Shown one piece after another: positions 24,037-62,856 of a DNA stretch of 64,000 bases. Source of the stretch: an uncultured Pelagibacteraceae bacterium (lineage in GTDB: Bacteria; Pseudomonadota; Alphaproteobacteria; Pelagibacterales; Pelagibacteraceae); contig CABXTN010000002.1 in the NCBI GenBank assembly GCA_902515185.1, positions 1-64,000 on the forward strand. The letters are read 5' to 3'. Below the pieces are notes generated by a model. The model did not search any database, was not told where the DNA came from, and saw only the letters and a program-made list of their open reading frames with translations. The stretch's first letter is position 1; every line of letters starts with the position of its first letter. The translations under genes and the position numbers were made by a program.

Positions 24037-24966
24037 ATGAAAAAAATACTTGCTATACAATCAAATACTCTTAGTGAAATCAATGTTGAAACAGATACAA
24101 CTCTCTTATTAGCACTAGAGGCACAAAAAAGGAATTACGAAATAATTTGGTATGAAACTAAAGATTTAAGTTTAATTAAATCAAAAGTTTTTGTTGATGG
24201 TAAAAATGTAAAATTTTTTGATAAAACTAAACATTTTTATAAAGTAAAAAAAAATATTAAGTTTGATTTATCCAAAGCAAAAGTAATTTTGGTAAGACAA
24301 AATCCTCCCTTTAATATGGATTATATTAATTCAACCCATTTCCTAGATCATGTTAATATTAAAAGGGTAGTTAATAACCCTACCTCTTTAAGGAATGTTT
24401 CAGAGAAATTTTACTCAACTAATTTTTTAAAATATATGCCAGACACAATTTTTTCCAAGAATGTAAGGGAAATTTATACATTTTTAAAAAAAAATAAAAA
24501 AATAATAATTAAACCAATTCATGAATATGCGGGAAAAAATATCCTTTTTATTGATAGAAAATTAAATATTAAAATTTTAAATAAATATATTAAAAAATTT
24601 GATCATGTAATGGTTCAAAAATATTTAAGCAAAGTTAAGGAAGGAGATAAAAGAGTTTTTATTATTAATGGTAAAGTTAAAGGAGCTATTAGGAGGTTAC
24701 CTAAAAAAAATTCAATACTTTCAAATATATCTCAAGGAGGTACTGCTTTAAAAACTAATTTAAATTCAAGAGAATTAAAAATATCAAAATTAGTTGCTAG
24801 AAGATTAAAAAAGAGCAAAATTTTTTTTGCTGGCATTGATCTTGTTGGTGGTTATTTGATCGGAGATATTAATGTTACATCCCCAACTGGCTTACCTCAG
24901 TATAAAAAATTAACTGGTATAAATCTCGCTAAAGATTTTTGGAATGAACTCGAAAAACTAAAATAG
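24037..24966 (+). CDS. gshB: glutathione synthetase
   Basis: 309 aa ATP-grasp enzyme. [15 protein letters not shown] near 85, [13 protein letters not shown] near 112, [14 protein letters not shown] near 157 (glycine loop partly diverged), [14 protein letters not shown] near 205, and [20 protein letters not shown] near 267 are the GshB signatures. It adds Gly to gamma-Glu-Cys. It is the last gene of a five-gene plus-strand run and overlaps the convergent fhs gene by 9 bases. Confidence 0.88.
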
Positions 24967-26643
24967 CCCTTCTATCTCACCTTTTTTATTTAGTTTAATA
25001 GAATCTGCAGCTGGTACTTTTGGAAGCCCTGGCATTGTCATTATTTCTCCACATACAACAACTACAAATTCAGCACCAGAGGAAAGTCTTACCTCTCTAA
25101 CTGGCAAAACATGACCACTAGGAGCTCCTTTTAAACTCGGATCTGTTGAAAAACTATATTGTGTTTTTGCAATACAAACAGGAAGGTTTCCGTAACCTTT
25201 CGCCTCAAAATCTTTAAGTTGTTGTCTCACTTTTGTGTCCGCAACAACTTCGCTAGCATGATAAATTTCTAATGCTATTTTTTCAATTTTTTTAAATAAA
25301 GGTAAATCATCTTCGTATAAATATTTAAAAGTTTTATTTTTTTCTTCACAAATTGAAGCTACAGTTTGAGCAAGTTCTTTTGTGCCTTCACCTCCATCAG
25401 CCCAATGAGTACACATAGACGCTTTAATTCCAAGATTTTTACAAAAATCTAACAATGCTTTAGTCTCATTATCAGTATCTAAAATAAATTTATTAACTGC
25501 TACAGTAACGGGTAGACCAAACTTTTTTACATTATTTATATGTCTTTCTAAATTTACAAGACCCTTATTAACTGCCTCGACATTTTCATTTTTGAGATCT
25601 TCTTTAGCAATACCACCGTGCATTTTTAAAGCCCTAATAGTTGCTACTATTACTACACAGTCTGGTTTTAAATCTGATTTTCTACATTTAATATCTAAAA
25701 ATTTTTCTGCACCTAGGTCTGCACCAAATCCTGCTTCTGTAACAACAAAATCTGCAAGTTTTAGTCCAGCTTTAGTTGCAATTACAGAGTTACAACCGTG
25801 AGCAATATTTGCAAAAGGTCCACCATGAATTATTGCAGGATTATTTTCTAATGTTTGCGTAATATTTGGTTTAATAGCATCTTTTAACAAAACAGTCATT
25901 GGTCCCTGTGCATTAAGATCTTTTGCATAAATAGGTTTTTTTTCTCTGGTATGAGCAATAGTAATATTTCCAATTCTTTTTTCCAAATCTTCTAAATTAT
26001 TTGCAAGGCAAAAGATTGCCATTATTTCTGATGCAACCGTAATATCAAAACCATCTTGTCTTGGGTAACCATTTGCAACACCACCAAGATTAATATTTAT
26101 TGATCTTAAAGATCTATCATTCATATCGATTACTCTTTTCCAAGCTACTCTTCTTACATCTATATTAAGTTTATTTCCCCAATAGATATGATTATCTATT
26201 AAAGCAGATAATAAATTGTGAGCCGAAGTAATTGCATGAAAGTCTCCAGTGAAATGTAAATTAATTTGTTCCATAGGAACAACTTGAGCATAACCACCAC
26301 CTGCTGCACCACCTTTCATACCAAATGATGGCCCTAGACTTGGTTCCCTTAAACATACTATAGATTTTTTTCCAATTTTATTTAGACCATCACTTAAACC
26401 TACTGATGTAGTTGTTTTGCCTTCTCCAGCTGGAGTAGGCGTGATAGCAGTAACCAATACAAGCTTACTGTTCTTATTATCTTTAATTCCCTCTAAATAG
26501 TCTAAATTAATCTTTGCTATATGGGGGCCCATAGGGCTAAAAGCCTCAATTTTATTTGGAACGTTGATTTTTGCTAAAATATCTTGAATAGGCTGCATTT
26601 TTGCACTTCTTGCTATTTCTATGTCTGATTTGACTGCGCCCAT
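24958..26643 (-). CDS. fhs: formate-tetrahydrofolate ligase
   Basis: 561 aa, full family length. ATP-binding [13 protein letters not shown] at 68-80, [13 protein letters not shown] near 115 and [16 protein letters not shown] near 184 are typical. It makes 10-formyl-THF from formate, ATP and THF, joining oxidised C1 units to the folate pool. AAGGAGT precedes the ATG. It is divergent from soxBDAG, whose THF-linked demethylation feeds the same pool. Confidence 0.95.
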
Positions 26644-26734: not shown

Positions 26735-27991
26735 ATGCAAAAGTATTCAGTATTTAACCTCATTAAGAATGCGTTTTCAGGTCACCAAAATTGGGAAGTA
26801 GCCTGGAAAGACCCAACACCAAAAAAAAGTTATGATGTAATTATCATTGGTGGTGGAGGACATGGTCTTGCAACAGCATATTACCTAGCCAAAGAACACA
26901 ATATTACCAACGTTGCTATTATTGAAAAAGGATGGATTGGTGGAGGAAATGTAGGAAGAAATACTACAATTATAAGATCAAATTTTATGCATGATGCCAA
27001 CGGTAGGTTTAATGAATTCTCAATGGATTTATGGAGAAACATGAGCCAAGAATTAAACTTTAACGTAATGTTTTCGCCACGAGGGATTATTAACCTTGCA
27101 CATTCTGACGCTCAAATGAACGTTTACGCAAGAAGAGGTAACTCTATGAGATTAAATGGAATAGATGCTGTTCTTTTAAATAGAGAGGAAATTAAAAAAA
27201 TTATTCCAATGGCAGATTTTTCTGAAGATGTTAGGTTCCCAATTTTTGGCGGGCTGATGCAACCAAGCGCTGGTACAGCAAGACATGATGCTGTTGCCTG
27301 GGGATATGCTAGACAAGCAGATTCAATGGGCGTTGACATAATACAAAACTGTGAAGTCTTAAGTTTTGATGTTGTTGGTGGAAAAATTAAAGGTATTAGA
27401 ACTTCAAGAGGAGATATTAAGGCAAAAAAAATTGGACTGTGTGTTGCTGGGAGTACATCAATTTTAGCAGAAAAGCTCAACATGACTCTTCCAATCGAAA
27501 CACATCTATTACAAGCATGTGTTTCTGAACCAGTTAAGCCACTGTTGGATCATGTGGTTACTTTTGGAGCTGGACATTTTTACTGCAGTCAATCGGATAA
27601 AGGTGAAATGGTAATGGGTGGAGATTTAGATGGTTATAATAGTTATGCTCAAAGAGGAAATTTACCTACACTACAACACGTTTTAACAGAGGGAATAGCA
27701 ATGTTTCCTTTTCTCAGTAAACTAAAAATGTTGAGAACTTGGGGAGGGATTATGGACATGTCAATGGATGGATCTCCAATAATAGATAAAACTCATATTG
27801 AAGGATTATATCTAAATTGCGGTTGGTGTTACGGGGGATTCAAATCGACACCTGCATCAGGATGGACTTTTGCACATACTATTGCTCAAGACAAAGTTCA
27901 TAAACTAAATGCTGATTATAATTTAAACAGATTTAGTAAAGGATATCTATTAGATGAAAAAGGACTTGGAACAAAAACTTGGATATCCTAA
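26735..27991 (+). CDS. soxB: sarcosine oxidase / N-methylglutamate dehydrogenase beta subunit
   Basis: 418 aa DAO-family flavoprotein with FAD site GGGGHG at 39-44, GRNTTIIRSNF near 75, and C-terminal GWCYGGFKSTPASG, all typical of SoxB. The four-gene order B-D-A-G is that of heterotetrameric sarcosine oxidase; the homologous MgdABCD enzyme of the methylamine pathway has the same order. Both demethylate a secondary N-methyl amino acid, passing the methyl group as formaldehyde to THF. Abuts the next gene with no gap. Confidence 0.88.
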   Translation: MQKYSVFNLIKNAFSGHQNWEVAWKDPTPKKSYDVIIIGGGGHGLATAYYLAKEHNITNVAIIEKGWIGGGNVGRNTTIIRSNFMHDANGRFNEFSMDLWRNMSQELNFNVMFSPRGIINLAHSDAQMNVYARRGNSMRLNGIDAVLLNREEIKKIIPMADFSEDVRFPIFGGLMQPSAGTARHDAVAWGYARQADSMGVDIIQNCEVLSFDVVGGKIKGIRTSRGDIKAKKIGLCVAGSTSILAEKLNMTLPIETHLLQACVSEPVKPLLDHVVTFGAGHFYCSQSDKGEMVMGGDLDGYNSYAQRGNLPTLQHVLTEGIAMFPFLSKLKMLRTWGGIMDMSMDGSPIIDKTHIEGLYLNCGWCYGGFKSTPASGWTFAHTIAQDKVHKLNADYNLNRFSKGYLLDEKGLGTKTWIS

Positions 27992-28258
27992 ATGCTTTAT
28001 ATTAAATGCCCATATTGCGGAATAAGAGCACAAACTGAATTTGCTTATGGTGGGGATGCTACCGTTAAAAGACCTGAATTAAATAAAGAAATTACTGATA
28101 AAGAATGGGATGAATTTGTATATTTAAGAAAAAGTTTAAGAGGAAAACATTTAGAATTTTGGCATCATATTTCTGGTTGTAGGCAATGGTTTAAGGTTCA
28201 AAGAGATACAACAACTCACGAAATTTTTAAAACTCTCAAACCACACGAAGAACTTTAA
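27992..28258 (+). CDS. soxD: sarcosine oxidase delta subunit (zinc protein)
   Basis: 88 aa; Cys6, Cys9, His58/59 and Cys63 match the zinc ligands of SoxD. The family sequence HLEFWHHISGCRQWF is clear. It is a small structural subunit of the heterotetrameric enzyme. Starts at the base after the soxB stop. Confidence 0.9.
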   Translation: MLYIKCPYCGIRAQTEFAYGGDATVKRPELNKEITDKEWDEFVYLRKSLRGKHLEFWHHISGCRQWFKVQRDTTTHEIFKTLKPHEEL

Positions 28259-28260
28259 AA

Positions 28261-31257
28261 ATGTCACAAAATTTTAGATTAGAAAAAGAAGGTTTAATAA
28301 ACAGATCAAAAAAAATTTCTTTTAAATTTAATGGTAAAAGTTTTTTTGGTTATGAGGGCGATACACTTGCTTCAGCGTTAATAGCAAATGGTGTGCATTT
28401 AGTTGGTCGTAGTTTTAAATATCACAGACCAAGAGGATTTTTTGGAGCAGGTGTAGATGATCCATATGCTTTAGTTCAATTAATTAGAAATAACGAAAGT
28501 ATCCCAAACGTTAAAGCCACAGAACAGGAACTTTTTGAAGGTTTAGAGGCTAAAAGTGTAAACTGTTGGCCAAATGTAAATTTCGATATTGGTGGAATTA
28601 ATAATTTTTTAAGAATTTTTTTACCAGCTGGCTTTTATTACAAAACATTCATGTGGCCAAAAAGTTTTTGGTATAAAATCTATGAACCATTTATTAGAAA
28701 AGCAGCAGGTTTTGGAGTTGTATCACACGAGCCTGATAAAGAAAGATATGAACATAAATACGAATATTGTGATTTATTGATTACAGGATCTGGACCATCT
28801 GGAATTGCTAGCGCATATTCTGCTGCAAAAAATGGAGCAAAAGTTATTTTAGCTGAGGATAAACCTAGATTTGGTGGAAGCTTGCTTACAAGCGATGTAA
28901 ATATAGGAAATGAAAGTGGAAAAGAATGGGCTGACAAAATTATCACTGAATTAAAAAGTATGCCAAATGTGGTAGTAAAAAATAGAGCACAGGTATTTGG
29001 TTATTATGATCATAATATGTTGGTGATGTCTGAAAGATTAACTGAGCATTTGCCAAAGTCTGACAAATTTACTCCAAAGCAAAAATTATGGTACATAAGA
29101 GCTAAAGAAGTTGTAATTTCATCAGGATCAATTGAAAGACCATTGGTATTTGGCAACAATGATACTCCAGGAGTTTTATTATCATCAGCTGCAAAAGAAT
29201 ATATGAAAGTTTATGGTGTTCTTGTTGGCAAAAAACCAATTATTTTTACAAATAATGATAGCGCATATGAAACTGCCATAGAATTCAAAAAAAATGGTAT
29301 TGATCCAGTAGTTTTAGACTCTAGAAAAGAGCTAAGCTCAGATTTAATTAATGAAGCTAAAAATCTTAATATAAAAATTAAATTTGAACATGTTGTTGTT
29401 AATGCAAACGGCTATAGAAAAGTAAAATCAGCAGATATAGCGAAAATTTCAGATGATAAAACAGCTATTGGAAAGGTTGAAAAAATTGAATGTGATTGTA
29501 TATGTGTTTCTGGTTTTTGGACGCCAACGATCCACTTAGCATCTCAATCTGGAGGAAAAACAAAATTTAGTAAAGAAATAGATGCATTTTTACCAGATAA
29601 ATCAAAACAGAACGAAACAACTGTTGGATCTGCAAATGGAATATTTAATCTACAGGATACTCTAAATAATTCTTTTGAGGTTGGATATAATTTATCAAAC
29701 AAAATAACAAAAAAAGAAAATAAACAATCTACGCCAACTGTTGTGGAGAAGAAAAGCTCTAAACATGATAAGTTTTGGTGTGTACCTTTACCAGAAGGCA
29801 AAAAATATAAACGTTTTTTAGATTTTCAAAATGATGTATCAGTTTCTGATATAGAAATAGCGTTAAAAGAGGGTTATAGATCAATAGAGCATGTAAAAAG
29901 ATATACCACTTTGGGTATGGCCACAGATCAAGGAAAAACAAGTAACTTAAATGGTCTTCAACTTGTTTCTAATATTGAAAACAAAGTAGTTCCAGAAGTA
30001 GGTCACACTACTTTTAGACCACCTTATACCCCAGTATCCATTGGAGCAATAGTTGGAAGAGAGATTGGCAAACATTCTAAACCATTAAGAAAATCACCAA
30101 TGCATTCATGGCATGAAAATAATAATGCAGTTTTTGTTGATGCTGGTTTATGGCTAAGACCAAGATATTATAAAAGAGGAAATGAAAATTTGTTCGATGC
30201 ATCAAAAAGAGAAGCAATGAATGTTAGAAAAAATGTAGGCGTGTGTGATGTTACAACTCTAGGTAAAATTGATGTTAAAGGTCCTGATGCTGCAGAATTT
30301 TTGAATCGTGTTTATACAAATGCTTGGCTCAAGCTTCCAGTAGGTAAAGCAAGGTATGGAGTTATGTTGAGGGAAGATGGGATAGTTATGGATGATGGAA
30401 CGACAACTAGGGTTTCGGAAAATCATTACCATATGACAACAACAACTGCGCAAGCAGCGAATGTTTTATCACATTTAGAATATTATCTACAAATAGTTTG
30501 GCCAGAACTAAATGTTAATGTTGTGTCTACTACTGAACAATGGGCAGGAGCAGCAATTGCAGGTCCCAAATCAAGAGATCTACTTCAAAAACTTTTTCCT
30601 GACTTAGATTGCTCCAATGAAGGTTTACCTTTTATGGGGTTTGTTGAAACAAAATTATTTGGAGTTTATGCAAGAATTTTTAGAATTTCTTTTTCTGGTG
30701 AATTAGCTTACGAGGTAAATGTTGAGTCAAACAACGGTAACTTTATGTGGGAAAAGATTATTGAAATTGGGGAAGAATATAAAATTCAGCCTTATGGAAC
30801 GGAGGCTTTATCTACATTAAGAATAGAAATGGGGCATGTAGCAGGATCAGAATTAGATGGAAGAACAACTCCCTATGATAATTCTTTAGAAGGTCTACTA
30901 AGTAAAAAGAAAGATTTTATTGGAAAAAGATCTTTACAGAAAGAGGCATTTATTGCCTCAAAAAGAGAAAAAATAGTTGGAGTTGTGCCTCTGGATAAAA
31001 AAACAAGTATTCCAGAAGGCTCATATATAGTGAGAGATGCAAATTCTAAACTACCAATTCCTAAATTAGGACATGTTTCAGCATCTTGCTGGAGCGTTGA
31101 ATATGATAACCCTTTTTCACTTGCAATAATTAAAGATGGAAAAAATATGATTGGGCAAAAACTTTTTGCGTTATCACCTTTAAAAAATAAATCAATTCCT
31201 GTTGAAATTGTCTCCTCTCACTATGTAGATCCAAAAGGAGAAAGAGTTCGATCATGA
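28261..31257 (+). CDS. soxA: sarcosine oxidase / N-methylglutamate dehydrogenase alpha subunit
   Basis: 998 aa. An N-terminal ferredoxin-like fold (GYEGDTLASALIANG, FKYHRPRGFFGAG) is followed by an NAD/FAD Rossmann domain (ITGSGPSGIASAYSA near 174), then a GcvT-like tetrahydrofolate domain from about 610 (GVCDVTTLGKIDVKGPDA, FSGELAYEVN) with a GCV_T C-terminal barrel. Length and domain order match SoxA and MgdC. The folate domain turns the methyl carbon into 5,10-methylene-THF. Overlaps soxG by 4 bases. Confidence 0.92.
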   Translation: MSQNFRLEKEGLINRSKKISFKFNGKSFFGYEGDTLASALIANGVHLVGRSFKYHRPRGFFGAGVDDPYALVQLIRNNESIPNVKATEQELFEGLEAKSVNCWPNVNFDIGGINNFLRIFLPAGFYYKTFMWPKSFWYKIYEPFIRKAAGFGVVSHEPDKERYEHKYEYCDLLITGSGPSGIASAYSAAKNGAKVILAEDKPRFGGSLLTSDVNIGNESGKEWADKIITELKSMPNVVVKNRAQVFGYYDHNMLVMSERLTEHLPKSDKFTPKQKLWYIRAKEVVISSGSIERPLVFGNNDTPGVLLSSAAKEYMKVYGVLVGKKPIIFTNNDSAYETAIEFKKNGIDPVVLDSRKELSSDLINEAKNLNIKIKFEHVVVNANGYRKVKSADIAKISDDKTAIGKVEKIECDCICVSGFWTPTIHLASQSGGKTKFSKEIDAFLPDKSKQNETTVGSANGIFNLQDTLNNSFEVGYNLSNKITKKENKQSTPTVVEKKSSKHDKFWCVPLPEGKKYKRFLDFQNDVSVSDIEIALKEGYRSIEHVKRYTTLGMATDQGKTSNLNGLQLVSNIENKVVPEVGHTTFRPPYTPVSIGAIVGREIGKHSKPLRKSPMHSWHENNNAVFVDAGLWLRPRYYKRGNENLFDASKREAMNVRKNVGVCDVTTLGKIDVKGPDAAEFLNRVYTNAWLKLPVGKARYGVMLREDGIVMDDGTTTRVSENHYHMTTTTAQAANVLSHLEYYLQIVWPELNVNVVSTTEQWAGAAIAGPKSRDLLQKLFPDLDCSNEGLPFMGFVETKLFGVYARIFRISFSGELAYEVNVESNNGNFMWEKIIEIGEEYKIQPYGTEALSTLRIEMGHVAGSELDGRTTPYDNSLEGLLSKKKDFIGKRSLQKEAFIASKREKIVGVVPLDKKTSIPEGSYIVRDANSKLPIPKLGHVSASCWSVEYDNPFSLAIIKDGKNMIGQKLFALSPLKNKSIPVEIVSSHYVDPKGERVRS

Positions 31258-31835
31258 AAAATATTTCACCACTAAACAATATTCATCAAATCGGAAAATA
31301 CGGAGACTTCCAAAATGTTAAAGATCATCAAATAATTAAAATAAAAGAAATAAAAAATATATTTATTTATCAATTAGTAAAATTTAAAAACTCATCAAAA
31401 AAAAATAGTGATTTATCAATTCAAAGCTTGAGTTTTCCTAATATTCTTGAAGTTAACGCAAAAAATGATTTGAGAATTTTATGGATGGGTCCAAATAATT
31501 GGTTGATTTTTTCTTCAAAAAATATTTATGAGGAATTGAATAAAAATTTTTCTATGAATGAGTTTGCAGTAACAGATATCTCTCATTCAAGATCTATAAT
31601 TGAGCTGGAAGGTTTAAATGTAAAAGAGGTATTAAAAAAAGGCTCACCATTTGATATCGAGTCTTTAAAACAAAACAATTGCACAAATACAATATATAAC
31701 GGAATTACAATTACGGTTGATTGTGTTGATCAAGATTTAAATAAAATAAGAATTATATCTCTAAGAAGCTTTGGAGAATCACTCTATCATTCAATAGCAG
31801 ATGGATGCCTCGAGTACGGTTACGAAGGCACTTAA
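31254..31835 (+). CDS. soxG: sarcosine oxidase gamma subunit
   Basis: 193 aa, weakly conserved as usual for SoxG; RILWMGPNNWLIFS near 70 and TDISHSRSIIELEG near 106 fit the family and its GcvT-like ancestry. Position and 4-base overlap with soxA make the call secure. No terminator was seen in the 79-base gap that follows, only a short ACAAG/CTTGT stem without a T run. Confidence 0.85.
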   Translation: MKNISPLNNIHQIGKYGDFQNVKDHQIIKIKEIKNIFIYQLVKFKNSSKKNSDLSIQSLSFPNILEVNAKNDLRILWMGPNNWLIFSSKNIYEELNKNFSMNEFAVTDISHSRSIIELEGLNVKEVLKKGSPFDIESLKQNNCTNTIYNGITITVDCVDQDLNKIRIISLRSFGESLYHSIADGCLEYGYEGT

Positions 31836-38643: not shown

Positions 38644-38806
38644 AGAATATAATCAAAAAAAATCCTCAAATGATAATGGAGATGAAATGGATAATATTTG
38701 TGAAGAATGTGAAAAGATAGATGAAAGTGTAAGTCAAAACTTGATTTTAAGTGGATATAAATTGTGTAAATCTTGCAGGATTTCGAAAACCCTATTTCCC
38801 ATTTAA
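38636..38806 (+). CDS. 56-aa four-cysteine zinc-ribbon-like protein
   Basis: Starting at the internal ATG at 38636 gives 56 aa with two CxxC pairs (CEEC at 22-25, CKSC at 44-47), a likely zinc site, and an acidic middle. I chose this start because it overlaps the DUF3726 stop by 8 bases (ATGACTAA) and gives a sensible protein; a longer frame from 38579 is possible. It ends overlapping the convergent Yip1 stop by 4 bases. Function unknown. Confidence 0.65.
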   Translation: MTKEYNQKKSSNDNGDEMDNICEECEKIDESVSQNLILSGYKLCKSCRISKTLFPI

Positions 38807-39490: not shown

Positions 39491-40849
39491 TTAGCCTTTA
39501 ACCACTTCTCTGGTATTAGCATTAAAGGACTCTTTGAATGGAATATCAACTACCACTGCATCCACAGGTGTTCCTGACTTCTCAGAGTATTTTTCTGGCA
39601 GATGAATTTTATATTTGGTTCCAACTTTTCCTTTCGGAAAACCATTGGAATTCAAAGTTCCATCAAAAGGAACATATCCCATAGCAATGTTCTGTTTTTT
39701 TTCAGGGTGGTACCAAGGAGAGGTTATGAAACCTACAGGGTCTCCACCACTTTCTGGCGATACTAGCCAAAAATCAGGAGCATATTCTTCAATAGGTTTT
39801 CCACCCAATTCAAATCCGACTAATTGAAGTTTGTATGGTTTCTTTCCATCTTTAAGTTCTGCTTTCATTTTCTCAAGCGCAGCTTTGCCAACATAGTCAG
39901 CTTTTTTATTCCATTCTCCTTTTCCAGAAAGTGAAACTTGATATCCTAAATTACATTGAAAAGGATTGTGTTGATTATCCATATCCTGACCCCATGAAAG
40001 AATTCCTGCTTGAATTCTTCTGTGGTGGGCTGGAGCAATTACCATTAAGTTATGTTTCTTTCCTGCTTCAAGAACTGCGTTCCACATATCCTCTGCATAT
40101 AAAGTTGAGTTTCTTAAATAAATTTCATATCCCGCTTCGCCTGAAAAACCTGATTGAGAAATTATAACATCTCTTCCACCAACTTTCCCTGCTCCTAGAC
40201 CATAGAAAGGCATGTTATCAAAATCAACTTCATTTCCACACAAATCTTTCATTAGAGCTTTAGCTTTTGGACCTTGAATTTGTACTGGGCTTACATCAAT
40301 TTCATCAATCGTGACATTGAATCTTCCATCTGCATTTACACCTTGAAGATAAAGACCGATATCACTGTCAGATAAACTAAACCAGAATTCATCTTTAGAA
40401 ATTCTTAAAAGAATTGGATCGTTTAAAACCCCTCCATAAGCGTTACACAAAATAACATATCTTGCTCTCATTGGAGAAATTTTTGTAGCATCTCTAGTAA
40501 TTACATAGTCGACAAATTTTTCTGCATCAGGACCTTTAACTTGAATTTGTCTTTCTACAGCAACGTTCCACATAGTTACATGATTTACAATTGCATCATA
40601 CTCTACCATAGCTCCACCATCCTCAGGTTTTACATAACCTCTAGGATGATAAATTCTATTATATACTGTCGCTCTCCAACATCCCGCTTTCATAGATAAA
40701 TGCCAGTAAGGTGACTTCCTAACTCTTGTAGAAATTAGTAATTCAACTTTTGTTGGTCCGCTTTGTCTTAAATTATAAGGCACATTTCTATCGGACTGGT
40801 CTACTGCTGTATTGTGTCTTACTTTATCATAATCAAACTCTTTAGACAT
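39491..40849 (-). CDS. GcvT-family THF-dependent methyltransferase, DmdA-like, substrate unknown
   Basis: 452 aa. GcvT/DmdA fold: MWNVAVERQIQVKGPDAEKFVDYVI... near 92, GVLNDPILLRIS then FWFSLSDSDI near 140-160 (very like DmdA), SGFSGEAGYEIYLR near 240 and a C-terminal barrel. It is about 80 residues longer than DmdA, with extra sequence at the start (WHLSMKAGCWRATVYNRIYHPRGY) and in the C-terminal part. The overlapping MetF-like gene implies that methyl-THF is the product. A proX-proW pair upstream hints that the donor is an imported onium or betaine compound. Confidence 0.82.
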   Translation of the reverse strand: MSKEFDYDKVRHNTAVDQSDRNVPYNLRQSGPTKVELLISTRVRKSPYWHLSMKAGCWRATVYNRIYHPRGYVKPEDGGAMVEYDAIVNHVTMWNVAVERQIQVKGPDAEKFVDYVITRDATKISPMRARYVILCNAYGGVLNDPILLRISKDEFWFSLSDSDIGLYLQGVNADGRFNVTIDEIDVSPVQIQGPKAKALMKDLCGNEVDFDNMPFYGLGAGKVGGRDVIISQSGFSGEAGYEIYLRNSTLYAEDMWNAVLEAGKKHNLMVIAPAHHRRIQAGILSWGQDMDNQHNPFQCNLGYQVSLSGKGEWNKKADYVGKAALEKMKAELKDGKKPYKLQLVGFELGGKPIEEYAPDFWLVSPESGGDPVGFITSPWYHPEKKQNIAMGYVPFDGTLNSNGFPKGKVGTKYKIHLPEKYSEKSGTPVDAVVVDIPFKESFNANTREVVKG

Positions 40850-41570
40850 ATTTGTTCTCCATCAACCACTTGTTAGTTTCCTTCAAGCCGCCGAATGTAT
40901 AAATGTGAAAATAATCAGTATGTGAATTAAGTTTCCCAATTAAATCATTAGGGTCTTTAGGTTTTAATAAATCTAACGCCTTACTAAAATTAGATTTAAG
41001 AAAATTTAAGGAATTTTTTGCTCCAACAATATTAGCAAATTTAATTAAACTTGATATTTTAAGAGGGCCAGTAATTCCCACATGAACTGGTATACTTTGT
41101 TTAGAAATGAAATCTATTATAGGCTGAGGATCCAATAACCATTGGGTTACTATGTAATCAGCATAAGGCTTTTTATCTATCATAGCTTTTTCTAAATCTG
41201 AATCGGATATATCAGGACTCCCCTCTGGATGTCCAGCAATTCCTATCTTCATCTTCTCAAAATAACCAGTCTCTAAAAGTTGATATGAGCTATCAAACTT
41301 ACCCGCAGGTTCACGTCCACCACCTATAACTAGAACTTGTTTAACACCTCCGTCTTTACACATATCAACGTAATCCTTAAGCTGATTATCATTCTCAATT
41401 GACCTAGCTGGAAAATGAGGAATTGGATTATAGCCTTTTTTTACAAGGTTTATTGCCTGTTGAGCCGTTTCTTTATAATCCCCACCTGGAAGCATTGTAA
41501 TATATATGTCTTTTAATGCTGGTAAAGTGCTCAAGTCAGCTTTAGGTCCAATTTCTAATGAAAATTTCAT
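40842..41570 (-). CDS. metF: short methylenetetrahydrofolate-reductase-like protein
   Basis: 242 aa against about 290 for MetF. FSLEIGPK at the start, PHFPARSI near 53 and VLVIGGGREPAG near 79, then YIVTQWLLDPQ near 139, fit the flavin-dependent TIM barrel of MTHFR. It overlaps the GcvT-like gene by 8 bases. It would oxidise methyl-THF to methylene-THF, the direction needed after a methyl transfer to THF, rather than (or as well as) supplying methionine synthesis (inference). Confidence 0.8.
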   Translation of the reverse strand: MKFSLEIGPKADLSTLPALKDIYITMLPGGDYKETAQQAINLVKKGYNPIPHFPARSIENDNQLKDYVDMCKDGGVKQVLVIGGGREPAGKFDSSYQLLETGYFEKMKIGIAGHPEGSPDISDSDLEKAMIDKKPYADYIVTQWLLDPQPIIDFISKQSIPVHVGITGPLKISSLIKFANIVGAKNSLNFLKSNFSKALDLLKPKDPNDLIGKLNSHTDYFHIYTFGGLKETNKWLMENKYV

Positions 41571-41634: not shown

Positions 41635-42519
41635 TTATTTTTTTTGACCTCTGTGTTTTTGGATCCTTTGACCGTACTGTTGTGTGACTCGGTCAAAAAT
41701 AATTGCTAAAGCAACTATGGCAAGACCATTCATCATGCCAAGAGCTAAATATTGATTAGATATAGACTGGAGTATTGGAATTCCAAGGCCTTTTACACCG
41801 ATCATAGAAGCTATAACCACCATAGCTAATGCCATCATAATAGTCTGGTTAACTCCGGCAAAGATAGTAGGTAAAGATAATGGAATTTGAACTGATTTGA
41901 GTTTTTGCATAGGAGTTGCTCCAAACGCTTCACTGGCTTCTAATGCTTCCTTATCTACTTCCCGAATTCCAAGATTGGTTAATCTTACAACCGGTGGTAA
42001 TGCATAAATACAAACTGCTAATAAACCTGGTACTTTCCCAATACCTAAAAGCATAATAATAGGAATTAGATATACAAAGCTTGGTATTGTTTGCATCATA
42101 TCTAAAATAGGTAGAATTGATTTTTCAGCCCTATTTGATTTTGACATCAAAACTCCAATTGGAATTCCAACTACTATGCAAACTAATGTAGCTACTGAAA
42201 TTATAGCAACTGTAGCCATACAGTTTTTCCACATTCCAAAATAACCAATAACCAAGAAACACAACATAGTTCCTATAACTAATTTTATACTTCTTGAGCC
42301 AATCCATGCTAACAGACCAAAAACCCCAATTACTATAGGCCAAGGACTTGTTATTAATAATTTTTCAAGCCATATTAAAAAAAATAATAATGGATCAAAG
42401 AAACTTTCGATAGCATCGCCATAAGCTCTAGAAAAATCTTTAAAACCTAAGTCAATTCCTTTTTTAAGGTCTCTTAGAGCCTCTCTATCCATTTCAGGAA
42501 TTTTGTTGAAGAAATCCAT
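41635..42519 (-). CDS. proW: ProW-type permease of betaine/onium ABC transporter
   Basis: 294 aa with six or so membrane segments and the permease EAA loop (EVDKEALEASEAFGATPMQKLKSVQIPL near 190). The extended N-terminal region (residues 1-65) is typical of ProW. Located between proX and metF on one strand. No ATPase gene is in this run. Confidence 0.9.
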   Translation of the reverse strand: MDFFNKIPEMDREALRDLKKGIDLGFKDFSRAYGDAIESFFDPLLFFLIWLEKLLITSPWPIVIGVFGLLAWIGSRSIKLVIGTMLCFLVIGYFGMWKNCMATVAIISVATLVCIVVGIPIGVLMSKSNRAEKSILPILDMMQTIPSFVYLIPIIMLLGIGKVPGLLAVCIYALPPVVRLTNLGIREVDKEALEASEAFGATPMQKLKSVQIPLSLPTIFAGVNQTIMMALAMVVIASMIGVKGLGIPILQSISNQYLALGMMNGLAIVALAIIFDRVTQQYGQRIQKHRGQKK

Positions 42520-42576: not shown

Positions 42577-43587
42577 TTAAAGTGATGCTTTGATTGCTTT
42601 CTTAGCTTTTCCTGACACCCACTTAGACCATACGTCTTCTTGAGTTTTTAGGAATTCTATTGCAGCATCTGCACCTTCGGCTTGGTTTTCACCCATCCAC
42701 ACCAACATTCCATTCATCACTGGACCAGGGTAAACTCTTTTCTTAAGATATTTCATACCATCTTTTCCAGCAGTCTTTTTGAAATTGTCAGTAGTTATTG
42801 TGAAAACTTCAGATTTAACCCATGAAGATTGTTTAGGGTCAGCACATTCTTGCTCTGGTTTAACTAAACAGTTATCCCAGTTATCTTTACCACCCCATTC
42901 TCCCATGTCTACAGCCTGAAGGTTATATTTTCCAACTAAAGAAGTTGGTGACCAATAATAACCAAACCAGTTTTCTCCTCTTTCAGCAGCCTTAGCTATT
43001 GAACCATCTAATCCAGCAGCAGAACCAGTCTCTACTATTTTCCAACCTTTACTCTCCATCTCCCATGCTCTAAAATGGTTTCTGTTACTTATTTCACAGC
43101 TCCATCCCGGAGGACAAATATGAAATCCACCTTTTGATGGATCTTCTGGATGTGGAAAAAGATCTGGTCTTTTTAAAATTTCAGCAGCACTAGTTAGCTC
43201 AGGATTTTTTTCTAATGTAGCAGGTAATACCCACCATCCTTCACCCAAACCAGTAATCGGAGCTTTATTAATTGAATGCATTTTGCCTTCATCTACTGCT
43301 TGATTTAAAGCAACGATTGCAGCATTAGCCCAAAACTCAGGAGCTACATCAGGCTCACCTTTTTCTTGCATAGATGTGAAAGTCGGCATTGTTGCACCAG
43401 GCACAAGCTCTACTTCACAACCATAACCTTTTTCAAGTATAACTTTATCAACTTCAGCCATGAAATTTGCAGAAGCCCAATTCATGTTTGCAATTGATAT
43501 CTTTCCGCAGGCAGCATTCGCAATTCCACTAAAAGAAGTGAAACCTAGAATTACTAAAGCAGAAAGTAATATTTTTTTGATTTTCAT
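42577..43587 (-). CDS. proX: periplasmic substrate-binding protein of betaine/onium ABC transporter
   Basis: 336 aa from the start at 43587, chosen because it gives a clean signal peptide (MKIKKILLSALVILGFTSFS... cut after ANA) and has AAAGGG 6 nt upstream; an upstream in-frame ATG at 43629 adds 14 unlikely residues. OpuAC fold with Trp/Tyr cage residues (NWASANF, EFWANAA, GWWVLPA, NWFGYYWSPT) and four or more Cys for disulfides (HICPPGWSCE). Ligand probably a betaine; DMSP or choline are alternatives. Confidence 0.88.
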   Translation of the reverse strand: MKIKKILLSALVILGFTSFSGIANAACGKISIANMNWASANFMAEVDKVILEKGYGCEVELVPGATMPTFTSMQEKGEPDVAPEFWANAAIVALNQAVDEGKMHSINKAPITGLGEGWWVLPATLEKNPELTSAAEILKRPDLFPHPEDPSKGGFHICPPGWSCEISNRNHFRAWEMESKGWKIVETGSAAGLDGSIAKAAERGENWFGYYWSPTSLVGKYNLQAVDMGEWGGKDNWDNCLVKPEQECADPKQSSWVKSEVFTITTDNFKKTAGKDGMKYLKKRVYPGPVMNGMLVWMGENQAEGADAAIEFLKTQEDVWSKWVSGKAKKAIKASL

Positions 43588-43866
43588 TATTTTCCCTTTG
43601 TTAAATTTAACTATATAATCTGACCACATTGGCCCCTAAAAAGCAAATCAGATTCAACTAAAAGTTGAAATAAAAATGTCTTTTATAAGGTATAATTTTA
43701 TAATAATTTTTAAACTAATGAAAAAAGTATCAATTAATAATCAAATTGGTTTCAAATTTAATTTAAATTGTAAAACAGTTTTTCAACAATCAATCATCAG
43801 AGACAGTTACTAAAATTTTCCTCGAATTAAGAAAAATTAATTACAATTTAATTTAAAGGAGGAAAA
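43588..43866. promoter_or_regulatory. divergent control region of proX and bhmt with long bhmt leader
   Basis: No gene in this 279-base gap. A TATAAT at 43691-43696 (plus) would start a bhmt leader of about 165 bases, long for this genome; a TTGAAA lies 20 bases upstream, wider than ideal. On the minus side a GC-richer patch (GGGGCCAATGTGGTCA) precedes proX. I could not fold a known riboswitch in the leader. Confidence 0.4.
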
Positions 43867-44925
43867 ATGAAAAAAAATTTAATTACAAGATTAAACGAAG
43901 GTCCAATTCTTTGTGCAGAGGGATACTTATTTGCTATGGAAAGAAGAGGATATCTGTCTGCTGGAGCTTTTGTACCAGAGGTAGTCTTAGAGCACCCAGA
44001 AGTAGTTACGCAATTACATAAAGAGTTTATAAGATCTGGTTCGGATGTTGTGCAAGCCTTTACTTATTATGGACATAGAGAAAAATTAAGATTGATTGGT
44101 AAAGAAGATTTACTTGAACCATTACAAAAAAATGCTTTAAAAATTGCAAAAGATGCGGCAAATGAATTTAAAGATTTAGATCTTATGGTTTGTGGTGACG
44201 TTGCAAATACAAATATTTATAACCCAACAGATAAAAAATCTCATGCTGAATGTCAAAAAATGTATGAGGAACAAGTAAAATGGGCAAAAGAAGCTGGTGT
44301 AGATTTTGTGATTGCGGAAACAATTAATTGGACAGGAGAAATGGAAATAGCTTTAAAAGCAATTAAGCAAGAAGGGCTTATTGCTGTTGCTAACTTTGCA
44401 ATACCTAAGGGAGATTTAACTAGAGAAGGTCATACAGCAGAAGATGCTTGTAAAATGATTGAAGATCAAGGAGCAGATGTTGTGGGTTTGAATTGTTATA
44501 GAGGACCTAAAATGACAATGAAATTATTAAAAAAAATTAGAGATAAAGTTTCTTGCCACGTCGCTGCTCTGCCAGTTCCATACAGAACCTCGGAAGAGTA
44601 TCCAGGTTTTTTAAATCAACCCAAAGAAACTGTTGACCCTGACTGCTCTTGTATACCCGGTGATAATATTTTTCCTGTGGCCCTTGATCATTTATATTGC
44701 AATAGATTTGAAATGGGTGAGTTTGCAAAAGACTGTGAAGAAATGAATGTAAATTTTATTGGAATATGTTGTGGCGCTGAACCCCATCATGTCAGAGAAA
44801 TGGCAGTAGCACTTGGAAGAAAACCAGAGTCTTATAAATATTATCCAGACATAAGTAGACACTGGTTACACGGAAAGGATAAATCTTTTTTAGAACTAAA
44901 TACCAGTATGAAGAAAAAATATTAA
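43867..44925 (+). CDS. bhmt: betaine-homocysteine S-methyltransferase
   Basis: 352 aa homocysteine methyltransferase barrel. Zinc cysteines Cys210 (GLNCYRGP), Cys301 and Cys302 (GICCGAEPHH) are present, as is the homocysteine-binding start (EGPILCAEGYLFAMERRGYL). The AAAGGAGG site is the strongest in the region. Transfers a methyl group from glycine betaine (or DMSP in some homologues) to homocysteine, giving methionine and dimethylglycine. First gene of a twelve-gene plus-strand run; the dimethylglycine-dehydrogenase-like gene follows 1 base later. Confidence 0.92.
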   Translation: MKKNLITRLNEGPILCAEGYLFAMERRGYLSAGAFVPEVVLEHPEVVTQLHKEFIRSGSDVVQAFTYYGHREKLRLIGKEDLLEPLQKNALKIAKDAANEFKDLDLMVCGDVANTNIYNPTDKKSHAECQKMYEEQVKWAKEAGVDFVIAETINWTGEMEIALKAIKQEGLIAVANFAIPKGDLTREGHTAEDACKMIEDQGADVVGLNCYRGPKMTMKLLKKIRDKVSCHVAALPVPYRTSEEYPGFLNQPKETVDPDCSCIPGDNIFPVALDHLYCNRFEMGEFAKDCEEMNVNFIGICCGAEPHHVREMAVALGRKPESYKYYPDISRHWLHGKDKSFLELNTSMKKKY

Positions 44926-44926
44926 C

Positions 44927-47332
44927 ATGGAAAAAAATGCAAAAGTAGTAATTATTGGCGGTGGAGTAGTTGGCTGTTCAATACTTTACCATTTAGCAAA
45001 ATTTGGTTTAAAAGATTGCATTCTATTAGAGAGAAATGAACTAACTTCTGGTTCATCTTGGCATGCCGCAGGAAATGTTCATGTAATTTCATCAGATCCA
45101 AATATTTCAAGAATGATGGCTTATACAATTGGCTTATATAAAGAGATAGAAAAAGAGTCTGGCCATTCAGTAGGTTTTAAGCCAAGTGGAGGATTTTATT
45201 TAGCCTCAAATGATGTTTGGGCAGAGTATTTAAAAAGAGAAAGATCTAAAGCAAGATATATGGGCTTAGATCAAGAATTCATTTCATTAGAAGAAGTTAA
45301 AAAGAAAAATCCACTTATTGATCCATCTAGATATTTATTAGCATTATGGGATCCAATTGATGGTGAAGTTGATCCATCAGGTGTGACGTACGCTTTTGCA
45401 AAAGCAGCAAAAGTTCATGGTGGAAAGTATTACACACACACGGTTGTCAAAGATACCAAACAAAAACCAGATGGATCGTGGGATGTATTCACAGACAAAG
45501 GAAATATAAATGCTGAAATAATTATAAATGCTGGTGGTTTATGGGCTAGAGAAGTTGGTAAACTTTCTGGTGTCGACTTACCAGTTCAACCGATGGAACA
45601 TCATTATTTAATTACAGAGGCGATACCTGAAATTGAAGCTATGGGGGATCAAAGACTTCCAATAGGTACAGATTTTGAGGGAAATATTTATTTTCGACAA
45701 GAGGGAAAAGGAATGCTGCTTGGTACTTACGAACCGAAATCAACACCTTGGAAGGTAGATGGAACTCCAATGAATTTTGGTCACGAACTTCTAGAACCAA
45801 AATTAGAAAATATTCAAGATCGCCTTGCAATTGGATTTAAAAGAATGCCAGCATTAGAAAAAGCAGGAATTAAAAATATTGTCAATGGGCCATTTACTTT
45901 TGGACCTGATGGCAGTCCACTTATTGGACCCGTTCCAGGTATGAAAAATTATTGGGTAGCAGTTGGTGTAATGGCAGGATTTTGTCAAGGTGGTGGTGTT
46001 GGGAAATGTATAGCTGAATGGATAATTGATGGAGAACCATCAATTGATGTATGGGCAATGGATGTTGCTCGATTTGGAGAATATGCAACTCCTCAGTATG
46101 GAACTATAAAATCTTCAGAAAATTATGAAAGAAGATTTATTATGACTTTTCCAAACGAGACATTACCAAAAGGTAGAAAACAAAAAACAACTGCACTGTA
46201 CGATCGTTTTGTAAATCAGGGTGCCGTTATGGGAGATGGTTTTGGTTTAGAAAGTGTTCTGTGGTTTGCAAATAATAAAGAAGACGCATATGAAGAACCA
46301 ACAATTAAAAGATCTCGATCTCACAGCTATGTTTCTAAAGAAGTTATTAATGTAAGAGAAAATGTTGGAGTAATGGAACTTGCAAATTTTTCAAAACATG
46401 AATTTAAGGGACCGGACTCTAAAAAATTTTTAGATTATGTAATGGCTGGAAAAATACCTAAACCAGGGAGAATTTCATTAAGCCCAATGTTAACAAAAAA
46501 AGGAAAACTTTATGGTGATCTTACTATAGCTTGTATGGATGAGAATGAGTATATGATTTTTGGATCTGGAGCAGCTCAAGAAATGCATAGAAGATGGTTT
46601 GAAAATCATCTTGGAAAATTTGATGTAAAATATAAAAATCGATCAGATGAATTTCATGGACTAGCTATATCAGGACCTAAATCGCGAGATGTATTACAAA
46701 AAGTTGTGAGAGAAGAAGTTTCAAATAAAAACTTTAAATTTAGAGACTCTAAAAGAATGTATGTGGCAGGCGTTCCAGCGATTGTAAATAGAATTTCTTT
46801 CACAGGTGAACTTGGTTATGAAATCTATGTGGCACCTCACTATCAATTAAAATTATATGAAGAGTTAACCAATGCTGGAAAGGAATTTAACATTAAACCA
46901 TTTGGCCTAAGAGCTCTAATGTCGATGAGACTTGAAAAAAATTGGGGTGCTTGGACACTTGACTATAGACCTGATTTTACTGCAAAAGAGACTGGTTTAG
47001 ATACATTTATTAATTGGGATAAAGAATTTATAGGCAAAAAGTTTGCAAAAGATGACAATAGTAAAAACAAACTTATACCAATGATTGTTGAAACAAATGA
47101 CATAGATGTAACTTATAACGAAGCTGTTTTAAAAAATGATAAAGCAATTGGCTATATTACTTCGGGAGGTTTTGCTCACTTTGTAAATAAAAGTATTGCG
47201 TTTAGTTATTTGGATACAAATGAATTAAATTCTGGAAAAGGTATTCAAGTAGAAATTAATGGTGATCTATTTAATTGCTCAACAATTAAAGAGCCTCTTT
47301 ATGATCCAAGTGGACAGAAAATGAGGAGCTAA
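44927..47332 (+). CDS. dimethylglycine-dehydrogenase-family flavoprotein (copy 1)
   Basis: 801 aa. FAD site GGGVVG at 11-16; WHAAG with His46, the position of the covalent flavin histidine in DMGDH; central FAO domain (about 390-445); GcvT folate domain (about 450-710: GVMELANFSKHEFKGPDS, SFTGELGYEIYV); C-terminal barrel. These enzymes demethylate dimethylglycine or sarcosine, passing the methyl to THF. Following bhmt, dimethylglycine is the simplest substrate, but the paralogue at 59675 has the ETF genes. Stop overlaps the next start. Confidence 0.9.
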   Translation: MEKNAKVVIIGGGVVGCSILYHLAKFGLKDCILLERNELTSGSSWHAAGNVHVISSDPNISRMMAYTIGLYKEIEKESGHSVGFKPSGGFYLASNDVWAEYLKRERSKARYMGLDQEFISLEEVKKKNPLIDPSRYLLALWDPIDGEVDPSGVTYAFAKAAKVHGGKYYTHTVVKDTKQKPDGSWDVFTDKGNINAEIIINAGGLWAREVGKLSGVDLPVQPMEHHYLITEAIPEIEAMGDQRLPIGTDFEGNIYFRQEGKGMLLGTYEPKSTPWKVDGTPMNFGHELLEPKLENIQDRLAIGFKRMPALEKAGIKNIVNGPFTFGPDGSPLIGPVPGMKNYWVAVGVMAGFCQGGGVGKCIAEWIIDGEPSIDVWAMDVARFGEYATPQYGTIKSSENYERRFIMTFPNETLPKGRKQKTTALYDRFVNQGAVMGDGFGLESVLWFANNKEDAYEEPTIKRSRSHSYVSKEVINVRENVGVMELANFSKHEFKGPDSKKFLDYVMAGKIPKPGRISLSPMLTKKGKLYGDLTIACMDENEYMIFGSGAAQEMHRRWFENHLGKFDVKYKNRSDEFHGLAISGPKSRDVLQKVVREEVSNKNFKFRDSKRMYVAGVPAIVNRISFTGELGYEIYVAPHYQLKLYEELTNAGKEFNIKPFGLRALMSMRLEKNWGAWTLDYRPDFTAKETGLDTFINWDKEFIGKKFAKDDNSKNKLIPMIVETNDIDVTYNEAVLKNDKAIGYITSGGFAHFVNKSIAFSYLDTNELNSGKGIQVEINGDLFNCSTIKEPLYDPSGQKMRS

Positions 47333-59674: not shown

Positions 59675-62107
59675 ATGAAATCTAAAGCTAAAGTAGTTGT
59701 TGTTGGTGGTGGAGTTGTTGGAGTAAGTGCTCTTTATCACTTGGCAAAAAAAGGATGGTCCGATGTTGTTCTTGTAGAAAGAAAAGAACTGACGTCAGGA
59801 TCTACTTGGCACGCAGCTGGTCTTTTACCATTATTTAACATGAGTTATTCAGTAGGACAGCTTCATAAATATGCAGTCAATCTTTACAAAAAGTTAGAGG
59901 AAGAAACAGGAAAGAATGTAGGTTTTAGTGTAGTTTCAAATATAAGATTAGCAAACAACAAAGATAGAATGGATGAGTATTTCCAATATGCTGGAGTAGC
60001 TCAAACAATTGGTGTTGATGTTAAATTTTTAACACCAGATCAAGTAAAAGAAATTTGGCCTTTATGTAATACATCAGATTTAGTTGGAGCTATTCAACAT
60101 CCAGAGGATGGATATATTCAGCCTGCCGATTTAACGCAAGCTCTAGCAACAGGAGCGAGAAATAGAGGTGCTGAAATTTACAGAAACACAACAGTAGTAG
60201 GAATTAAACAAACTAAAGAAGGTTGGGTCGTTGAAACGGATAAAGGGACAATTGAATGTGAACATGTTATTTCATGTTCAGGAAACTTTGCAAGACAAAC
60301 TGGAAAAATGGTAGGATTAGATATACCTGTTATACCAGTTGAGCATCAATATATTGTGACTGAACCACATCCAGAAATTCAAAAAAGAAAAAAAGATGGT
60401 TTACCAGAAATGGGAGTATTAAGGGATAGTGATAGCAGATGGTACATGAGAGAAGAGGCGGGAGGTTTAATATTAGGACCTTATGAAGATGGTGCACCCG
60501 CTTGTTATGTAAATGGACCGTCAAAAGAATCTGAATATGAGTTATTTCAAGAAGATCTTGATAGACTGGCACCACACATTGAGGGAGCAATTCACAGAGT
60601 TCCTGCATTTGGTGAGGTTGGAGTAAAAAAAGTTTATAATGGTGCTATTTGTTATACTCCAGATGGAAATCCTATTGTTGGACCAGCTTGGGGTTTGAAA
60701 AATTTTTGGATAAACGAAGGACATAGTTTTGGTATTACAGCAGCAGGAGGTGCTGGATGGCAGTTAGCAGAATGGATTGTTGATGGAGAGCCAACAATTG
60801 ATATGTTGGGTGTAGAACCTAGAAGATATGGAGATTATTGTTCAAAATCTTATTTAAAAGAAAAGAATGAAGAAGCTTATAGTCATGTTTTCATCACACA
60901 CTTTCCTGATGAAGAAAGACCTGCAGCAAGACCTCTTAGAACCGCACCATGTTATGACAGAATGAAAAATTTAGGAGCGGTATTCGGTCAAAAATTTGGA
61001 TGGGAAAGACCTAATTTTTTTGCAACTGATGGAATGGAGCAGAAAGATGATTGGTCTTTTAGAAGATCTAATTGGTTTGAAGCAATAAAAAAAGAGTGCA
61101 AAAATGTTAGGGAGAATGTTGGTCTTTTAGATATGTCAGCATTTGCTAAATGTAGAATTAAAGGACCAAAAGCTGAGGAATTTTTAGATAAATTAGTTGC
61201 AAATAAATTGCCAAAAAAAATTGGAAGAATTAATTTATGCCACGCTTTAAATACTAAAGGAGGAGTACATTCAGAATTTACTATTATGCGTGAAGCAGAA
61301 GATAGTTTTTATTTAGTTTCAGCAGGAGCATATCAAAGACTCGATCATGATTGGATATTAAAGTGGATGCCGAGTGATGGCTCAGTACAATTTGAAAACC
61401 TGACAAACAGCATGGGTGTTTTGGTGGTTTCAGGACCAAAGGCTAGAGAGTTAATGACAAGAGTTTCAAAAGATGATTTTTCTAATGAAAACTTTAAATG
61501 GCTAAGTGCAAAAAATGTGGATATTGGCTTTGCTCCTGTAAATGCTATGAGAGTTAACTTTGTAGGTGAGCTGGGCTGGGAACTACATCATCCAATTGAA
61601 TATCAAAATCATATTTTTGATAAGTTAATGGATGCAGGTAAAGATCTTAATCTAGAACCTTATGGAATAAGAGCAATGAATAGCTTAAGAGTAGAAAAAT
61701 CATATAAACTTGTGGGAACGGAACTATCAATAGAATATTCACCTTATGAAAGCGGTTTAGATAGATTTGTTCATCCAAATAAAGGAAGTTTTATTGGATT
61801 AGATGCATTAAACAAATGGAGAGAGAAAGGGTTCGATAATAAATTGATAACTTTAGAAATACATAATGTAACAGATGCAGACGTGTTAGGAAATAATCCA
61901 ATTTATGAAAATGGTAAAGTAATTGGAAGAGCTACAGGTGGCGATTTTGGATTTAGACTTAATAAATCAATTGCGTTAGGAATGGTTAAACCGGAACTAG
62001 CAAATGTTGGACAAAAATTAAAAATTGATATACTTGGCAAAATGCATGAGGCAACAATTCTTGAAGAAAGTCCTTATGATCCAGAAAATAAATTGTTGAG
62101 AGCATAA
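59675..62107 (+). CDS. dimethylglycine-dehydrogenase-family flavoprotein (copy 2, ETF-linked)
   Basis: 810 aa with the same build as copy 1: GGGVVG at 11-16, WHAAG with covalent-flavin His46, FAO central domain (about 400-440), GcvT folate domain (about 455-720; [12 protein letters not shown]), C-terminal barrel. Here the gene is coupled by TAATG to etfB and etfA, and an ETF-ubiquinone oxidoreductase gene follows, so electrons flow from the flavin through ETF to the respiratory quinone. Substrate likely dimethylglycine or sarcosine. The residue at the position after HAAG differs (Leu instead of Asn in copy 1). Confidence 0.9.
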
Positions 62108-62856
62108 TGAAAATATTAGTAGCAGTAAAAAGAGTAATTGATTACAACGTTCAAATAAGAGTTAAAGAGGATGGAAGTGGCGTTGTGACTGATAACGTTA
62201 AAATGTCAACCAATCCACCAGACGATAATGCAGTGGAAGAAGCAGTTAAAATTAAAGAAGCTGGAAAAGCAACTGAGGTTGTTGCAATTACTGTTGGTGA
62301 AGAAAAAGCTCAAGAAACAGTTAGGAAAGCATTGGCAGTAGGAGCAGATAGAGGAATTCATGTTAAAGCTGAAGGCATTCTTGAACCATTAGCGGTATCA
62401 AAAATTTTGCAAAAAGTTGTTGAAAAAGAAAAACCTGATTTAGTATTTATGGGCAAGCAAGCAATAGACGATGATTGTAATCAAACTGGTCAAATGTTAG
62501 CTGCTTTATTAAATTGGCCTCAAGCGACTTTTGCATCAAAGATTGATGTCAAAGATAAATCTTTAGAGGTTACAAGAGAAGTTGATGAGGGATTGGAAAC
62601 AATTTCAGTAAACGTACCAGCGATTATAACCTGTGATTTAAGACTAAATGAACCTCGATATGCATCTTTACCGAATATTATGAAGGCTAAAAAGAAGCCA
62701 TTAGAGCAATTAAGTGCTACAGATTTAGGTATTGATACTAAACCAAGAATCGAGCAAATTAAGGTAGAGGAACCACCTAAAAGAAAAGCAGGGATTAAAG
62801 TAGGAAGTGTTTCGGAGTTAGTACAAAAATTAAAAAATGAAGCAAAGGTAATATAA
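62107..62856 (+). CDS. etfB: electron transfer flavoprotein beta subunit
   Basis: 249 aa: [19 protein letters not shown] at the start, [18 protein letters not shown] near 37, and [23 protein letters not shown] near 115 with the AMP-binding stretch. Heterodimer with EtfA carries electrons from flavin dehydrogenases. Coupled both upstream (DMGDH) and downstream (etfA) by TAATG. Confidence 0.95.

Follow-up and report, generated by a model that had tools for sequence, protein, structure and literature searches.

Glycine betaine ranks among the chief nitrogen osmolytes of the ocean, where no heterotroph is more abundant than SAR11. Three first steps of glycine betaine breakdown are known, GbcAB, BHMT and MtgBCD, and recent work assigns glycine betaine in SAR11 to BHMT alone (PMC12478193). 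In haloarchaea, dimethylglycine-oxidase-like genes have been noted beside BCCT transporters, with no first step named (PMC3102087). A gene pair of SAR11 was described by Sun 2011, in which SAR11_1265, a relative of DmdA with unknown substrate, lies next to the metF gene SAR11_1264; the guess made there was that SAR11_1265 demethylates methylmercaptopropionate (MMPA), that is, removes the second methyl of DMSP (PMC3160333). Both genes of this pair were among those with changed expression in a study of sulfur limitation (PMC5069961). The metF-linked pair treated below is not new in itself, as both the pair and its open substrate were already described by Sun 2011.

The window, the whole stretch of 64,000 nucleotides that was analysed, comes from a Pelagibacterales (SAR11) draft genome of 1.04 Mb, 86.6% complete. 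ORF calls confirm the layout given in an earlier note on this DNA: a 452-residue GcvT-family protein, for which we use the short name gcvTx (protein and gene), and a 242-residue MTHFR-like protein are encoded with an 8-base overlap downstream of a transporter, proW and then proX lying directly upstream of metF-gcvTx. The features of the window are as follows.

24958..26643, minus strand: formate-THF ligase gene fhs (ORF call)
26735..31835, plus strand: heterotetrameric sarcosine-oxidase operon soxB, soxA, soxG (ORFs; SoxA 1304 bits over cut-off; SoxG by family match)
39491..40849, minus strand: gcvTx, GcvT-family methyltransferase, 452 aa (ORF call, family profiles, trees, structure model)
40842..40849, minus strand: overlap of the metF stop and the gcvTx start, 8 bases (ORF calls)
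40842..41570, minus strand: short MetF/MTHFR-like protein, 242 aa (ORF call; nearest PDB sequence 7xg9)
41635..42519, minus strand: ProW-type ABC permease (NCBIfam ProW/ChoW matches, below cut-off)
42577..43629, minus strand: ProX/OpuAC-type binding protein, DmpX-like (PDB match RnDmpX 7yle)
43867..44925, plus strand: BHMT-like betaine-homocysteine methyltransferase, divergent from proX (Pfam S-methyl_trans 1.2e-41)
44927..47332, plus strand: dimethylglycine-dehydrogenase-like protein (DAO + GCV_T) of a second type (family match)
59675..62107, plus strand: DMGDH_A, a dimethylglycine-dehydrogenase-like protein, its gene lying near that of gcvTx orthologs from several genera
62107..63809, plus strand: electron-transfer flavoprotein (ETF) beta and alpha genes, directly 3' of DMGDH_A, named by sequence resemblance alone

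Through the 8-base overlap, metF and gcvTx are likely to be translationally coupled. The small soxD gene expected between soxB and soxA is absent from the ORF list. Fhs catalyses the next step of THF-linked C1 oxidation, and in other Pelagibacterales its gene adjoins or stands near metF-gcvTx. Two further features of the window were recorded in passing. A 181-residue membrane-type protein (38803-39348), with no match in Pfam or NCBIfam, comes after gcvTx, and its gene is kept in 78 of 80 near-relative loci. Small P-loop kinase-like and nucleotidyltransferase-like genes lie at 50376-51156, and the same pair, 75-96% identical, is found near metF-gcvTx in many SAR11 genomes (L049, L052, L062-L068).

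By profile and tree, gcvTx is neither a GcvT nor a DmdA, but a member of a wider DmdA-like superclade. Its best NCBIfam match is DmdA (NF009133, 242.6 bits, under the equivalog cut-off of 410), as is its best PDB match (3tfh, 1.3e-45), so the DmdA-like character seen in the earlier note is borne out. It also lies under the cut-offs for GcvT (NF001567, 151.5 bits against 300; TIGR00528, 133.8 against 235.85) and for LigM/DesA (NF047885, 39.5 bits against 580; NF047633, 44 against 800). A true DmdA, which scores 553 bits and so passes the NF009133 cut-off, is encoded elsewhere in the source genome. In two maximum-likelihood trees, the gcvTx proteins form a single separate clade (support 100/100), which is sister to a group composed of DmdA, a DmdA-like set of another SAR11 family and a 385-residue paralog group. 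The superclade that holds all of these comprises 42 rows (support 99/96), and outside it fall E. coli GcvT (on a long branch), Tdm, and the DMGDH and SoxA domains. Placement within the GcvT clade had been named as the outcome that would refute the earlier reading; in the tree gcvTx lies outside GcvT, and the reading is not refuted.

An AlphaFold2 model of gcvTx (pLDDT 86.7) resembles DmdA most closely in fold (Z 44.6, with an rmsd of 2.2 across 366 residues), a likeness that does not by itself establish function. At 452 residues against 369, gcvTx is 83 residues longer than DmdA, in agreement with the surplus of about 80 residues and the distinct N-terminus noted before; the additional length consists of some 36 residues added at the N-terminus, with an almost invariant VDQSDRxVPYNLRQSGP stretch, and several loops. 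The NDP, W-x-S-x-x-D and ERQ motifs occur in gcvTx and the DmdA group and are absent from E. coli GcvT. In the comparison of the gcvTx and DmdA pockets, which covers motifs only, the S-K-Q that follows W/Y197 of DmdA, near the folate Glu204, is replaced by S/T-G-E after F235. As the DmdA of Phaeobacter (Roseobacter) has Tyr at position 197, W197 is not strict for DmdA, and an argument built on the Trp is weakened.

An ordinary glycine-cleavage T-protein, or a folate-binding protein that is no enzyme, would share the GCV_T fold and the folate glutamate, E242, that gcvTx conserves. Such an assignment is very improbable in view of the scores below all GcvT cut-offs, the position of E. coli GcvT outside the gcvTx clade, the fixed pairing with MetF and the annotated haloarchaeal gcvTx loci, in which no gcvP or gcvH was seen.

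The 385-residue group, whose members begin FGFGTQIRKSPYF (L153, L158, L168, L195-L204, L244), is well supported as sister to DmdA. With the DmdA model, the members tested reach about 376-389 bits, slightly short of its cut-off, and are therefore easily mistaken for DmdA. In Phaeobacter P88, the gene adjoins OsmC, enoyl-CoA hydratase and acyl-CoA synthetase genes.

The MetF-like partner scores 22.6 bits against Pfam PF02219, under the cut-off of 24, and is the sole MTHFR-family (PF02219) match found in the source genome (G000). Its only strong PDB match is 7xg9 (1.2e-32), which we take to be S6MTHFR of Sphingobium lignivorans SYK-6. S6MTHFR oxidises methyl-THF for LigM (PMC12585457). As SAR11 has neither MetE nor MetH (PMC12478193), methyl-THF from any SAR11 demethylase must be oxidised. 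We propose that the 242-residue MetF works as a 5-methyl-THF oxidase, running presumably in the oxidative direction. The pair had been read as a THF-dependent demethylase, DmdA-related but not DmdA, with a methyl-THF-oxidising MetF, and the sequence comparisons favour that view.

Orthologs of gcvTx (80-99% identity) are present in 160 of the 197 Pelagibacterales genomes sampled, and a copy 99% identical is found in SAG-MED15. metF adjoins gcvTx in all of the 20 loci first inspected; of the 80 nearest relatives, 79 have it there too, and 79 keep the same overlap. Orthologs in 160 genomes and an overlap retained to this extent indicate that the pairing is not due to chance. In one SAR11-like genome (G006, locus L057, 7021-10296), metF and gcvTx form a tandem with a third gene, DmdA-like but under the DmdA cut-off at 371.9 bits; fhs is divergent from the tandem, and DMGDH_A and soxB lie further along. 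On an IMG/VR contig of 4024 bp (L234), the last part of metF is followed by gcvTx up to residue 292 (84% identity); the contig is filed as viral, is more likely to be cellular DNA than to hold a phage gene, and plays no part in the argument.

Outside Pelagibacterales, gcvTx orthologs with 64-84% identity were found in 15 sampled alphaproteobacterial genomes. DMGDH-like and/or sarcosine oxidase (soxBDAG) genes lie within 12 kb of gcvTx in ten of these 15 loci and are absent at the other five. Three loci present a single run, soxB-soxD-soxA-soxG-DMGDH-metF-gcvTx, and three place gcvTx between DMGDH and soxBDA; in one it adjoins sox, metF and DMGDH, and in three more it is near DMGDH. Counted by genus, this company is found in 6 of 11 (p ~6e-6 at a generous 5% chance each). 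Of 18 alphaproteobacterial genomes with gcvTx, 14 have DMGDH_A itself, compared with 41 of the 367 others (Fisher p 6e-10, uncorrected for relatedness).

In a plasmid search, several haloarchaeal genera proved to have gcvTx orthologs (50-57% identity), and those included in the tree nest inside the gcvTx clade. Among nine haloarchaeal plasmid loci inspected, metF lies within ~4 kb of gcvTx in eight and one or two FAD oxidoreductases of DMGDH size lie within 12 kb in seven, the identities of all three proteins being taken from alignment where compared directly and from record annotation in the others. Where compared, the FAD oxidoreductases are DMGDH-like by alignment, and in some clusters annotated ETF genes come after a FAD oxidoreductase. 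Some loci add a BCCT transporter, fhs, folD, glyA, an ilvA-type threonine/serine ammonia-lyase, ETF or folate-synthesis genes. The Halomicrococcus locus has metF, BCCT, fhs and folD, with no FAD gene in range, and the Haloarcula halophila plasmid locus (one of the nine) has none of this company. Read together, the haloarchaeal genes would convert glycine betaine to pyruvate by way of dimethylglycine, sarcosine, glycine and serine. The wider genomic evidence from alphaproteobacterial and haloarchaeal orthologs points to glycine betaine.

The Haloarcula halophila copy (L247, plasmid positions 12001-13347), 50% identical to gcvTx, is not part of a betaine cluster. The CDS annotated for it falls short of the match, which is also overlapped by an ORF on the other strand, so this copy may be decaying or moved.

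The same neighbourhoods bear on the suggestion that the protein demethylates MMPA, the second methyl of DMSP, for which kinship with DmdA and adjacency to metF were the grounds (PMC3160333). gcvTx is found in genomes without DmdA, in haloarchaea it stands beside betaine-type genes, and most neighbourhoods inspected contain no dmd genes. By general chemistry, a thioether gives up its methyl group far less readily than an onium compound does, and we give MMPA demethylation hardly any credence.

From the gene pair, its clade, fold and genomic company, and the missing alternatives in several genomes, all read directly from the DNA, we infer a substrate, a direction for MetF, a reaction and a flux: gcvTx is probably a cobalamin-independent glycine betaine:THF methyltransferase, with MetF oxidising its methyl-THF, and we prefer this reading to the alternatives. 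gcvTx would transfer one N-methyl from glycine betaine to THF, leaving dimethylglycine, and the overlapping MetF would oxidise the resulting 5-methyl-THF to 5,10-methylene-THF. Dimethylglycine would pass through the DMGDH-like and SoxBDAG enzymes, with one more methylene-THF formed by each, and FolD and Fhs would release the C1 units as formate. DmdA takes its methyl from an onium donor, and glycine betaine chemistry is supported by the position of the gcvTx clade as sister to DmdA and its close paralogs, not to GcvT, and by the NDP and W-x-S-x-x-D motifs it has in common with them. Counted against the proposal are the five alphaproteobacterial loci and the Haloarcula halophila locus without the company, the BHMT gene of the window, the resemblance of ProX to a DMSP-binding protein and the DmdA-like gene in tandem with gcvTx in L057.

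Homologs of DMGDH and Sox are not all specific and can use further N-methyl compounds as substrates. A THF-dependent enzyme that demethylates a different osmolyte of the quaternary ammonium or N-methyl kind (carnitine, choline, proline betaine, homarine or beta-alanine betaine), with DMGDH and Sox acting on the products, would suit that latitude; it would also suit the BCCT and ProX families, which carry several such compounds, and the Rieske oxygenase genes nearby in SAR11 and H. marismortui. Glycine betaine is the simplest fit to the dimethylglycine-to-glycine-to-serine-to-pyruvate set with its THF C1 genes, and a different osmolyte appears unlikely, if still worth bearing in mind.

The distribution of other first steps bears on the glycine betaine assignment as well. 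BHMT was found in 64 of the 197 Pelagibacterales genomes and in 49 of the 149 with a completeness of 90% or more, which conflicts with a general use of BHMT for glycine betaine in SAR11. Among the 160 gcvTx-bearing Pelagibacterales genomes, BHMT was not found (E 1e-40) in 103, an absence count that incomplete genomes inflate and that includes the complete SAR11 genomes G003 and G005. In seven gcvTx-bearing genomes (G003, G005, G356, G271, G480, G315, G452), no BHMT-level, MttB/MtgB or GbcA-level match was found; Rieske proteins partly similar to GbcA exist in several of the seven. As BHMT is also encoded in the genome of the window, gcvTx would be partly redundant there.

The transporter genes raise the case for DMSP. 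RnDmpX (7yle, 3e-60) is the only PDB match of ProX, which at 35.8% identity keeps seven of the eight DMSP-pocket residues, with A153 changed to S; betaine-binding homologs use similar aromatic cages. With seven of eight pocket residues identical, ProX taken alone would point back to DMSP, and its cargo may be DMSP, glycine betaine or both. Among 73 near relatives, 54 have proW directly upstream of metF, as against 2 of 20 loci drawn mostly from complete or deeper genomes; beside metF-gcvTx in the loci outside Pelagibacterales, no proW was seen. The link is thus partly conserved and does not settle the methyl donor. The earlier note had taken the ProX ligand to be the compound demethylated, a weak point, the link being common in the near relatives, rare in the deeper loci and not seen outside the order; its view that the donor need not be DMSP is upheld, the wider genomic evidence favouring glycine betaine. 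A solitary ProV-type ATPase gene (342 aa, 56796-57824) lies 13 kb from proX-proW, and may complete this transporter, which has no adjoining ATPase gene.

The alternative that gcvTx is a further DMSP demethylase, supplied by the DmpX-like ProX and making methylmercaptopropionate and methyl-THF, has the ProX pocket as its strongest point, together with DmdA as the nearest characterised relative of gcvTx and the tandem in L057. However, the source genome has its separate DmdA, gcvTx scores far below the DmdA cut-off and lies outside the DmdA clade, S-K-Q has given way to S/T-G-E, and the company in haloarchaea and most Alphaproteobacteria is of the glycine-betaine type. In six genomes that carry gcvTx, the DmdA model finds nothing else at E <= 1e-60, which disfavours a role tied to DMSP or MMPA. 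We consider a second DMSP demethylase distinctly unlikely.

On balance, we lean slightly towards a broader view, that a hitherto unrecognised single-protein, B12-free enzyme and not BHMT is the glycine betaine entry step in most SAR11 species, as part of a module common to halophilic archaea. If true, the main SAR11 betaine route runs through a different enzyme, which would free betaine oxidation from the methionine cycle; gcvTx would supply the first step left unnamed in haloarchaeal betaine catabolism (PMC3102087), and would serve as a gene marker countable in metagenomes, where it is now lumped with GcvT or DmdA. In a search of the open literature, with subscription papers outside its scope, nothing was found that describes a glycine betaine demethylase of the GcvT family.

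Compared with known systems, gcvTx is most like DmdA (3tfh), its best sequence and fold match, with which it has NDP, W-x-S-x-x-D, ERQ, the folate Glu and a Tyr in common; it differs in its 28-31% identity, its 83 further residues, its own N-terminal segment and its separate clade. LigM with S6MTHFR likewise joins a THF-dependent demethylase to an unusual methyl-THF-oxidising MTHFR, but LigM is distant from gcvTx (39.5 bits; PDB 4e-07) and has aryl methyl ethers as its substrates. MtgBCD carries out the reaction proposed here, betaine methyl to THF, beside DMGDH/sarcosine genes (PMC12478193), using a cobalamin-dependent MttB-type protein, a corrinoid protein and a second methyltransferase, whereas gcvTx would act as a single GcvT-family protein without B12. 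BHMT (SAR11_1173 type) removes the same glycine betaine methyl as proposed for gcvTx, but belongs to an unrelated family and has homocysteine as acceptor, which ties its flux to methionine. Finally, SAR11_1265/SAR11_1264 of Ca. Pelagibacter ubique HTCC1062 likewise pairs a DmdA-related AMT with an adjoining metF, belongs to the SAR11 core and is, judged by its description, very likely orthologous to gcvTx-metF. Where Sun 2011 left the substrate open and guessed MMPA, the new element here is that orthologs outside SAR11 point to glycine betaine.
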